A stretch of 64,000 nt of DNA from assembly GCF_023540835.1 (NCBI RefSeq), contig NZ_JALKCU010000001.1, positions 868,001-932,000 of the forward strand. The letters run 5' to 3'. Shown here in pieces: positions 49,555 through 64,000 of this stretch. The notes under the pieces were generated by a model that searched no databases, was not told the origin of the DNA, and saw nothing but the letters and a program-made list of their open reading frames with translations. How positions within the stretch are numbered: position 1 is the stretch's first letter; every line of letters begins with the position of its first letter. A program made the translations under genes and the position numbers. The stretch is from Marivivens geojensis. Lineage in GTDB: Bacteria; Pseudomonadota; Alphaproteobacteria; Rhodobacterales; Rhodobacteraceae.

Positions 49555-50898
49555 TTAAGCGCCCGGGTTACACTGACCGAGATCGCCACCGGCGAACATC
49601 GGGTGATCCGGTGCGTATTCGACCTGAGCACGCGGGGTCGTTTCAACGATTTCCAGCGTGTCGTATTCGTTGGTCGGGTTCTCTGCGCCTTTCATAACCA
49701 GAACGTCTTTGAAGCACTGGTGGTCTGCACCGCGGTACAGAACCGGACCGTTGCCCATGCCGTCGAATTCGAAATCTTCGAGAGCTTCGACAACGCCACA
49801 TGGGTTGAAGGTGCCTGCGCGGGTTACAGCATCTGCATAGAGCAGGGTCTGAACATACGAGGTGTGTGCAGCGTTTGAAGGCGGACGGCCATATTTTTCG
49901 CCGAACGATTTTACGAAGGCCTGGGTGCCAGCGTCTTGCAGCTGCCAGTTCCAGTTCATCGAACCGTAAACGCCTTGGATGTTCGAACCAGCACCAGCCG
50001 CCATCAGTTCCGAGTAGAGCGGAACAACGATTTCGAACTGCTTGCCGTTCACCATCTTATCACGAAGACCGAACTGAACGGCCTGCGACAGCGAGTTCAC
50101 CATGTCCCCGCCGTAGTGGTTCAGGATCAGAACATCTGCGCCCGAGTTCAGAACTGGAGCGATGTAGGACGAGAAGTCGCCTGCGCCAACTGGCGTGCGA
50201 ACCTTCTCAACGGTCTGCCAGCCGAGAGCTTCGGTGGACGCCGCGATCGACTCTTCCTGTGTCCAGCCCCAAGTGTAGTCAGCGGTGAGGTGATACGCGC
50301 GACGCTCGGTGCCATAGACGTTGCCCAGAACCGGAGCCAGAGCAGCACCCGACATGTAGGCGTTAAAGAAGTGACGGAAACCGTTGGCCTTGCGGTCTTT
50401 ACCGGTTGTGTCGTTCGAGTGGGTCAGAGCGGCCATGAAGATCACGCCAGCTTCTTGACACAGACCTTGAACAGCAACAGCCACACCCGAGGACGAACCG
50501 CCAGTGATCATCACTGCGCCGTCTTTCTGGATCATCGACTGTGCAGACGCACGTGCAACGTCAGATTTGGTCTGGGTGTCACCAGTGACGAAGGTCACTT
50601 TCTTGCCTAGGATACCAGCGCCGTCGAGCGCTTTGGACGAGAAGGTGTTCAGCATACCGCCGTCGCCTTCGCCGTTCAGGTGCTCAACAGCGAGCTGGAA
50701 TGCGCGCAGTTCGTCGAGACCTTCTTCGGAGTAGGGGCCAGTTTGCGGAACGTTGAAACCAAACACGACTTCGCTGCCTGTTGGGGCATTGGTAAAGCCG
50801 CTGTGGCTTTCAGCGCGTAGGTAAGTCGGCAGAAGCAGGCCAGAGCCGGCGATTGCACCAGACTTCAGCACGCCACGACGCGAGAATTTATTGGACAT
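49555..50898 (-). CDS. livK: HAAT-family periplasmic binding protein (LivK-like)
   Basis: A 447-residue periplasmic binding protein of type I amino-acid/amide family. The N-terminus has a twin-arginine signal (FSRRGVLKSG plus a hydrophobic stretch), suggesting Tat export of the folded protein. The mature part has GFNVPQTGPYSEEG and a ligand-site pattern GVAVAVQGLCQEAG. Length is above normal LivK (~370), like urea/short-amide or aromatic-acid binding relatives. ATG at 50898 with GGGAGGA upstream. The DUF2083 regulator is divergent. Confidence 0.82.
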   Translation of the reverse strand: MSNKFSRRGVLKSGAIAGSGLLLPTYLRAESHSGFTNAPTGSEVVFGFNVPQTGPYSEEGLDELRAFQLAVEHLNGEGDGGMLNTFSSKALDGAGILGKKVTFVTGDTQTKSDVARASAQSMIQKDGAVMITGGSSSGVAVAVQGLCQEAGVIFMAALTHSNDTTGKDRKANGFRHFFNAYMSGAALAPVLGNVYGTERRAYHLTADYTWGWTQEESIAASTEALGWQTVEKVRTPVGAGDFSSYIAPVLNSGADVLILNHYGGDMVNSLSQAVQFGLRDKMVNGKQFEIVVPLYSELMAAGAGSNIQGVYGSMNWNWQLQDAGTQAFVKSFGEKYGRPPSNAAHTSYVQTLLYADAVTRAGTFNPCGVVEALEDFEFDGMGNGPVLYRGADHQCFKDVLVMKGAENPTNEYDTLEIVETTPRAQVEYAPDHPMFAGGDLGQCNPGA

Positions 50899-63669: not shown

Positions 63670-63713
63670 GCCCCTATAGCTCAGCTGGTAGAGCAACTGA
63701 TTTGTAATCAGTA
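63670..63713 (+). pseudogene. tRNA-Thr (UGU) truncated after the anticodon arm
   Basis: The 5' part of a tRNA-Thr: GCCCCTATAGCTCAGC, D arm, and perfect anticodon stem ACTGA-TTTGTAA-TCAGT with anticodon UGU. Canonical tRNA sequence stops at 63713 or one base later; the expected variable loop, T arm and acceptor 3' strand are missing and replaced by unrelated, AT-rich DNA. Breakage exactly after the anticodon stem is what site-specific integration at an anticodon loop would leave. The disrupted gene would have been functional before. Confidence 0.75.
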
Positions 63714-63891
63714 AGCTCAAGCAAATCCCATTCCCCGCAAAGACCTCATAAGTATCTGAAAACACTACATTTTTAGAGATACTTCTAATCTAGTCAGATT
63801 TTTCCATACTACACCTATACTACAAAATCGGAAAAATCCGTAGTATGGGTCTTGCAGTAGAATTCTGTAAAGTGTATGGGAAGGGAGCGTA
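63714..63891. other. AT-rich junction DNA with nested inverted repeats
   Basis: 178 bp between the broken and the intact tRNA-Thr, clearly AT-richer than the rest of the window, no ORF. It carries inverted repeats AAGTATCT/AGATACTT (63750-63757/63777-63784), CCATACTAC/GTAGTATGG (63804-63812/63840-63848) and GATTTTTCC/GGAAAAATC (63797-63805/63830-63838), plus a direct repeat of TACTAC. Candidate att arm region of an integrative element. Confidence 0.5.
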
Positions 63892-63964
63892 GCCGCTATA
63901 GCTCAGCTGGTAGAGCAAGAAATTTGTAATTTCGAGGTCCCGGGTTCGATCCCTGGTGGCGGCA
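63892..63964 (+). tRNA. tRNA-Thr (anticodon UGU), second copy
   Basis: A complete 73-base tRNA without encoded CCA. Acceptor GCCGCTA with TGGCGGC (one G-U), D arm GCTC/GAGC, anticodon loop TTTGTAA (UGU), T arm CCGGG-TTCGATC-CCTGG with a G-U. One mismatch (A27-G43) in the anticodon stem, AGAAA versus TTTCG. The first 24 bases agree with the truncated copy except for one base, but the anticodon stem and T arm differ, so it is not a simple duplicate. Confidence 0.88.
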
Positions 63965-64000
63965 CGCTCTAGAAAGTATCGTCAACCTTCTAGTTGCAAA

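Follow-up and report, generated by a model that had tools for sequence, protein, structure and literature searches.

Classical tRNA-targeting islands, as described for Islander (PMC4383910), encode a tyrosine integrase, are flanked by direct repeats and carry sequence that restores the tRNA gene in which they reside. Another solution, tRNA-dependent lysogeny, was shown experimentally in mycobacteriophages in 2024 (PMC10865867). In the actinophages treated there, including Fionnbharth, LeBron and Gaia, a tyrosine integrase with an arm-binding domain acts at an attB that lies within a host tRNA gene, a core this short cannot rebuild that gene, and the phage brings its own tRNA of the same isotype. 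Table 2 of that paper gives cores of 8–17 bp and cognate phage tRNAs Lys, Ile2 and Leu for the tRNA-dependent cases, and lists a Thr-CGT site that is rebuilt; the Lactobacillus prophage Lj965 is named as an earlier candidate. Two Lo5R7ANS-like prophages of Sinorhizobium meliloti were described from sequence as inactivating tRNA-Leu(UAG) and carrying a functionally similar tRNA (PMC11476347). The strategy is also mentioned in PMC12429752, a study that found no such case among its own prophages.

The element that we describe here, E1 of Marivivens geojensis, shares with these actinophages an integrase gene of the same type, an attB in a host tRNA, a short core without a rebuild and a tRNA of the same isotype, and in its draft genome the host tRNA appears to be non-redundant. 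With the S. meliloti prophages it has in common an alphaproteobacterial carrier, an inactivated host gene and a similar tRNA carried along, and with classical islands the tyrosine integrase, the tRNA gene and the flanking repeats. It differs from the actinophages in that the carrier is very probably a mobilizable plasmid-type element and not a temperate phage, in that Thr(UGU) is not among the tRNA-dependent cases tabulated in PMC10865867, and in a slightly longer core of 19 bp. Its tRNA, 178 bp from the core, belongs to a single int-attP-tRNA cassette; that of Fionnbharth overlaps gene 37. The S. meliloti cases are prophages and concern Leu(UAG), and classical islands, unlike E1, restore their target. 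Because the carrier does not appear to be a phage, we do not file E1 under lysogeny, although it appears to work like it.

A sequence-only reading of this DNA had thought that the arrangement could be unusual. The strategy itself is known from mycobacteriophages (PMC10865867), so that part does not stand; the carrier and the cassette anatomy appear new as far as our searches reach. Among the literature matches listed, with subscription journals mostly outside their scope, there was no plasmid, island or mobilizable-element case of tRNA-dependent integration. With E1, a strategy that has been proven in actinophages and also reported from prophages of Sinorhizobium would extend to a mobile element of plasmid type, which suggests that tyrosine-integrase elements can generally escape the need for a long, tRNA-mimicking attP by bringing a spare tRNA. 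E1 also shows how a foreign gene can functionally replace a chromosomal tRNA gene.

A split host tRNA-Thr(UGU) and the att sites

The window, the whole 64,000-nucleotide stretch that was analyzed, corresponds to C10:868001-932000, and subtracting 868000 from a coordinate of contig C10 gives the (extrapolated) window position. The draft genome comprises 18 contigs and 3.18 Mb, with a completeness of 99.97 and a contamination of 0.06. Near the right end of the window an exact match of 44 nt to the host tRNA-Thr(UGU) stops and gives way to AT-rich DNA, and 178 bp past the break, on the strand of the host half, begins a complete tRNA-Thr with the same anticodon. The missing 3′ part, which encodes CCA, was found beyond the window, 15,113 bp downstream of the 5′ part when measured core to core. 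The two parts (tRNA positions 1-44 and 26-76) overlap by an exact 19 bp, AACTGATTTGTAATCAGTA, which is the complete anticodon stem-loop plus one base on either side. Finding the missing part with this overlap excludes chance as the cause of the split.

Joined, the halves give the intact tRNA-Thr(UGU) of genome G214, base for base. The same intact gene is present at 100% in two same-genus genomes, G117 and G396, and the four remaining same-genus genomes have an intact tRNA-Thr(UGU) at 86-91% identity. The upstream flank is common to G117 over 6.4 kb at 91.5% identity, and for this reason we take G117 as the site without E1. ARAGORN called no tRNA at the left or right junction, so the host gene is not rebuilt at attL or attR.

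Most of this had been anticipated in the sequence-only reading, which described the broken gene followed by a complete one, placed the crossover in the anticodon stem-loop, expected the missing half at the far end of an element with a tyrosine integrase, and proposed comparison with an empty site. The broken and complete genes are real, the att core is the whole stem-loop, the missing half and an intact integrase gene beside attR were both located, and G117 supplies the empty site. That reading had also named, as outcomes that would speak against it, the lack of any element and a chromosome that continues directly past the window; neither occurred, and a 15.1-kb element was found there.

Table 1. 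Coordinates of the split tRNA, the att sites and the genes of E1
Feature	Window position	C10 position	Strand	Basis or remark
Interrupted host tRNA-Thr(UGU), 5′ part (positions 1-44)	63670..63713		+	100% vs intact tRNA in G117 and G396
attL, left att core copy, 19 bp, whole anticodon stem-loop	63695..63713		+	Exact repeat of C10:946808-946826
E1 portion within window	63714..64000			E1 runs on to C10:946826, 14.8 kb past window end
Three ATACTAC sites, putative integrase arm-type sites (P′ arm)	63806..63846			End-region clustering; putative role
Complete mobile tRNA-Thr(UGU), no encoded CCA, anticodon stem AGAAA/TTTCG	63892..63964	931892-931964	+	ARAGORN; RF00005; alignment
515-aa Rep/primase-like gene		932163-933710	-	PHROG primase/replication, best E 1.4e-10
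hsdM-hsdS-hsdR, type I restriction-modification		934651-940360	+	Pfam; hsdM and hsdR above NCBIfam cut-offs
Relaxase and MobC/NikA-like gene		940357-941974	-	PF03432, E 1.5e-12; PF21983, E 4.5e-4, below cut-off (weak)
Serine recombinase		943115-943822	+	PF00239
Two small ORFs (no matches) and ParA		944456-945100	-	ParA: PHROG 164, E 2.1e-23
Tyrosine integrase		945331-946653	-	PF00589, E 2e-20; PF13356, E 4.2e-10
Right ATACTAC trio		946677-946726
attR core		946808-946826		Exact 19-bp repeat
Host tRNA-Thr(UGU), 3′ part (positions 26-76), CCA encoded		946808-946858

The heptamer ATACTAC occurs eight times in E1, and seven of these copies lie in the end regions (200 + 300 bp), where 300 first-order Markov sequences of like composition gave a mean of 0.04 and a maximum of 1. 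One trio stands ~93-133 bp to the right of the left core and another ~82-131 bp to the left of the right core; of the remaining copies, one is in the start of int and one elsewhere in E1. The natural reading is that these clusters would be arm-type binding sites of the integrase. In circular E1, the integrase, attP and the tRNA would lie adjacent as one cassette of ~1.75 kb, and that same set of parts was what actinophage integration plasmids worked with (PMC10865867).

The element-borne tRNA and the decoding of ACA

The mobile tRNA scored 62.4 bits against Rfam RF00005, within the range of 51.3-76.4 spanned by the 48 genome matches listed. Of its 73 positions, 15 depart from the host tRNA: seven in the anticodon stem, two in one acceptor pair and six in the T-arm region. 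It also lacks CCA, which is encoded by all 38 distinct tRNAs that ARAGORN recovered at the remaining 47 Rfam places. The alignment thus confirms the differences in anticodon stem, T arm and acceptor, and the missing CCA, that had been noticed in the window, and supports the proposal that the element brought its own isoacceptor and left the host gene in two halves. Counting G-U, seven of seven acceptor pairs and five of five T-stem pairs form; the anticodon stem forms four of five, the mismatch being A27-G43. G1-C72, C2-G71, A73 and U36-A37 are all retained, which we take to suit threonyl-tRNA synthetase and t6A formation. The genome encodes a PF01743 nucleotidyltransferase, a homologue of the CCA-adding enzyme.

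The closest chromosomal tRNAs found in the family were 85% identical to the mobile tRNA. The top match in 710 phage records was the tRNA-Thr(UGU) of Kyanoviridae phage C48C1, identical at 63 of 73 positions (86.3%), with seven of the ten differences in the anticodon stem. Next came mycobacteriophage tRNA-Lys genes at 83.8%, including that of Gabriela, itself a tRNA-dependent phage (PMC10865867); we took this likeness as shared tRNA consensus. Scans of viral contigs with two sequence patterns for the mobile tRNA gave 0 matches.

The anticodon loop of the mobile tRNA is that of the host, and seven of the ten stem positions are changed, such that three pairs are compensatory and a fourth becomes A-G. 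Because the stem is rewritten, E1's own tRNA has no att core. Of 16 tRNA-Thr(UGU) sequences, a small set gathered by similarity, 14 contain the inner core GATTTGTAATC; it is absent only from the mobile tRNA and one plasmid-borne tRNA. This is suggestive of a stem that may shield the tRNA of E1 from its own integrase. The evidence is modest, since stems of this isoacceptor often vary: among 15 other tRNA-Thr(UGU) sequences, again few and gathered by similarity, 14 of 105 pairs differed at 7 or more of the 10 stem positions, and on average 25% of differences fell in the stem. Given this control, we rejected the C48C1 pattern as strong evidence for a purposely altered stem. The rewritten stem might alternatively reflect escape from tRNA-cutting defences, for which an eLife study has reportedly described changes in the anticodon loop, and in the mobile tRNA the loop is unchanged.

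Two plasmid-borne genes came up beside this comparison. The only other sequence of the 16 without the inner core, on an Erythrobacter aureus plasmid (NZ_CP031358.1:155275-155350), has an anticodon stem, ACGCT/AGCGA, that is itself unusual. In a Rhodobacteraceae strain, plasmid pSC52_1 (CP049029.1:153586-153661) bears a tRNA-Thr(UGU) that matches the host gene at all 73 compared positions and is followed ~140 bp later by a gene for a tyrosine integrase.

ARAGORN, run on the 48 Rfam places, called one tRNA-Thr(GGU), one tRNA-Thr(CGU) and, for UGU, the mobile gene only. A further intact UGU copy elsewhere, which the sequence-only reading had named as a possible objection, was not found in DNA searches of the genome with the mobile and host tRNAs; a pattern scan with TTGTAA...GGTTCRA gave four matches, of which only two were tRNA (the mobile tRNA and the orphan part). 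The Rfam list misses at least one ARAGORN tRNA, a tRNA-Tyr at C10:993810, so the claim rests on all searches combined; the list being incomplete and the genome a draft in 18 pieces, a second UGU gene that went undetected is unlikely, though not impossible. ARAGORN also called a tRNA-Leu(CAG) at window positions 50017-50110 (minus strand) that is not in the Rfam list and is perhaps a false call.

By established decoding rules, the ACA codon is read only by a UGU anticodon, and the codon is in use both in the sampled host ORFs of the window and in those of E1. Apart from the mobile gene, the genome yielded no intact tRNA-Thr(UGU), so that the decoding of ACA very probably depends on it. This dependence had been interpreted as an addiction mechanism, which it would not be in the usual sense. 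Precise excision would rejoin the halves into a perfect host tRNA, so that loss of E1 by excision should cost the cell nothing, and only imprecise deletion or decay of the mobile tRNA would be lethal. We see the mobile tRNA rather as the cost of insertion into an essential gene that is present in one copy.

A strict consensus scan for promoters gave no plus-strand site between the host half and the mobile tRNA, and no terminator was found in the same interval. Because the truncated host gene precedes the mobile gene by 178 bp in the same orientation, transcription from the host tRNA promoter could possibly run on into the mobile gene, which would then become active on integration.

Nature of the element and alternative explanations

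E1 has a G+C content of 39.6%, compared to about 53-63% in the chromosome after 961.5 kb. Its gene set consists of 11 ORFs chosen from a mechanical ORF list. The 515-aa Rep/primase-like protein had no Pfam or NCBIfam match and shared 22-26% identity with plasmid RepB-type primases (best 20 of 444 records). The integrase reading frame is intact throughout and lies ~155 bp from attR. E1 encodes its own integrase (PF00589) and relaxase (PF03432), as integrative mobilizable elements do, together with a weak NikA-like match. No mating-pair family was detected among the chosen proteins (11 of 11 scanned with Pfam, 10 of 11 with NCBIfam and 8 of 11 with PHROGs), two small proteins being unmatched and one weakly matched. 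We consider it highly probable that E1 is a mobilizable element of plasmid type, now integrated, whose mode of integration is tRNA-dependent.

An element that follows the same scheme as the actinophages could also be a defective prophage or phage satellite, that is, a case of ordinary tRNA-dependent lysogeny by a phage; its integrase matches phage integrase PHROGs (best E 1.4e-42), and the mobile tRNA is no less similar to the tRNA of phage C48C1 than to the best chromosomal matches found for it in the family. We regard this as improbable, for no phage structural, packaging or lysis family was found in the 8 of 11 proteins scanned with PHROGs, Pfam identifies the remaining three as HsdM, HsdS and HsdR, and what E1 has instead is a relaxase, a MobC-like protein, ParA and a RepB-like primase. 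Less probable still is that the second tRNA is an unrelated passenger, a codon-usage helper or anti-nuclease decoy, and that the loss of the host tRNA is incidental, another gene covering ACA. Such explanations are common for phage tRNAs (see the discussion in PMC10865867); here the anticodon stem is altered, and E1 is rich in ACA, which makes up 91 of 207 Thr codons in its 11 ORFs vs 28 of 181 in a host sample of eight chosen window ORFs. No other UGU gene was found to do the covering, however; the tRNA matches the disrupted gene exactly in anticodon and isotype and sits beside the att site, and its anticodon loop itself is unchanged.

The assembly is a draft, which leaves room for a chimera or for a dead remnant in a mixed culture behind the split. 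An assembly error is unlikely, because one 1.395-Mb contig holds both junctions and the rearrangement has the form of a site-specific event, with the 19-bp repeat and the integrase where such an event puts them. Considering also the completeness and contamination values, we give the chimera or remnant hardly any credence.

Proposed mechanism, integrase relatives and neighbouring integrations

From the observed anatomy, core, integrase gene, empty site in relatives, UGU census and CCA-adding-enzyme homologue, we infer a model that extends to expression, charging, the cell's dependence and mobility. The tyrosine integrase of E1 would recombine the 19-bp attP core with its identical counterpart in the host tRNA-Thr(UGU), where it forms the anticodon stem-loop, leaving the host tRNA as two dead halves, which would stay split because the core is too short to rebuild the gene. 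E1 would supply the complete tRNA-Thr(UGU) just inside its left end, perhaps transcribed at least partly by read-through from the promoter of the truncated host gene; a host enzyme would add CCA, and the mobile tRNA would then take over ACA decoding, its rewritten anticodon stem perhaps keeping the integrase off. Points against the model are the A27-G43 mismatch, the missing consensus promoter before the mobile tRNA and the draft state of the genome. Codirectional placement and the rewritten stem yield two testable ideas, promoter capture and protection from the element's own integrase.

More tentatively, a conjugally mobilizable plasmid might have evolved tRNA-dependent integration as a compact int-attP-tRNA cassette, with the tRNA placed for switch-on by a host promoter at integration and its stem rewritten by three compensatory pairs so that the integrase ignores it. 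We think this version rather doubtful; if true, host translation would run on a plasmid-borne gene that is active only when integrated.

Relatives of the integrase were few and distant. At E<=1e-20 there were none in 393 other genomes of the family, and at E<=1e-15 they occurred in 3 of 384 other class-sample genomes, at 28-29% identity. None was confirmed in viral contigs, and a genome-contig search gave one match, at 21%, in Marivirga. Plasmid records gave 61 matches, all under 60% and the 20 listed near 22.7%, and phage records gave six, at 21-27%. No close relative turned up in these sets, so the travel of the tRNA together with the integrase is presumed and not backed by comparison. Three genomes have four distant copies: one beside a tRNA-Lys(UUU) that is intact, two beside isolated 3′ parts of tRNA-Lys that start near the anticodon (genomes G636 and G631), and one at a contig end without a tRNA. 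By similarity search, G636 and G631 hold further partial tRNA-Lys matches as well as full-length ones. This pattern fits anticodon-type integrases that rebuild the tRNA classically. The several partial matches suggest repeated anticodon-type insertions at tRNA-Lys in G636 and G631.

Directly after E1 stands a second integrative element, E2 (C10:946839-961756, about 14.9 kb, 47% G+C), at the 3′ end of the same tRNA. It encodes a separate tyrosine integrase of the DUF6538 type, shows on inspection by eye a repeat of 26 bp, GAGTCCGTGTGGGGGCACCACTTCTT, leaves the 3′ end of the tRNA intact in the classical manner, and looks like a classical tRNA-targeting island. Synteny with relatives downstream of E2 was not found by blastn. 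To the eye, the sequence that immediately follows the intact tRNA-Thr of G117 resembles the beginning of a further integrase gene, and for this reason tRNA-Thr may be an integration hot spot.
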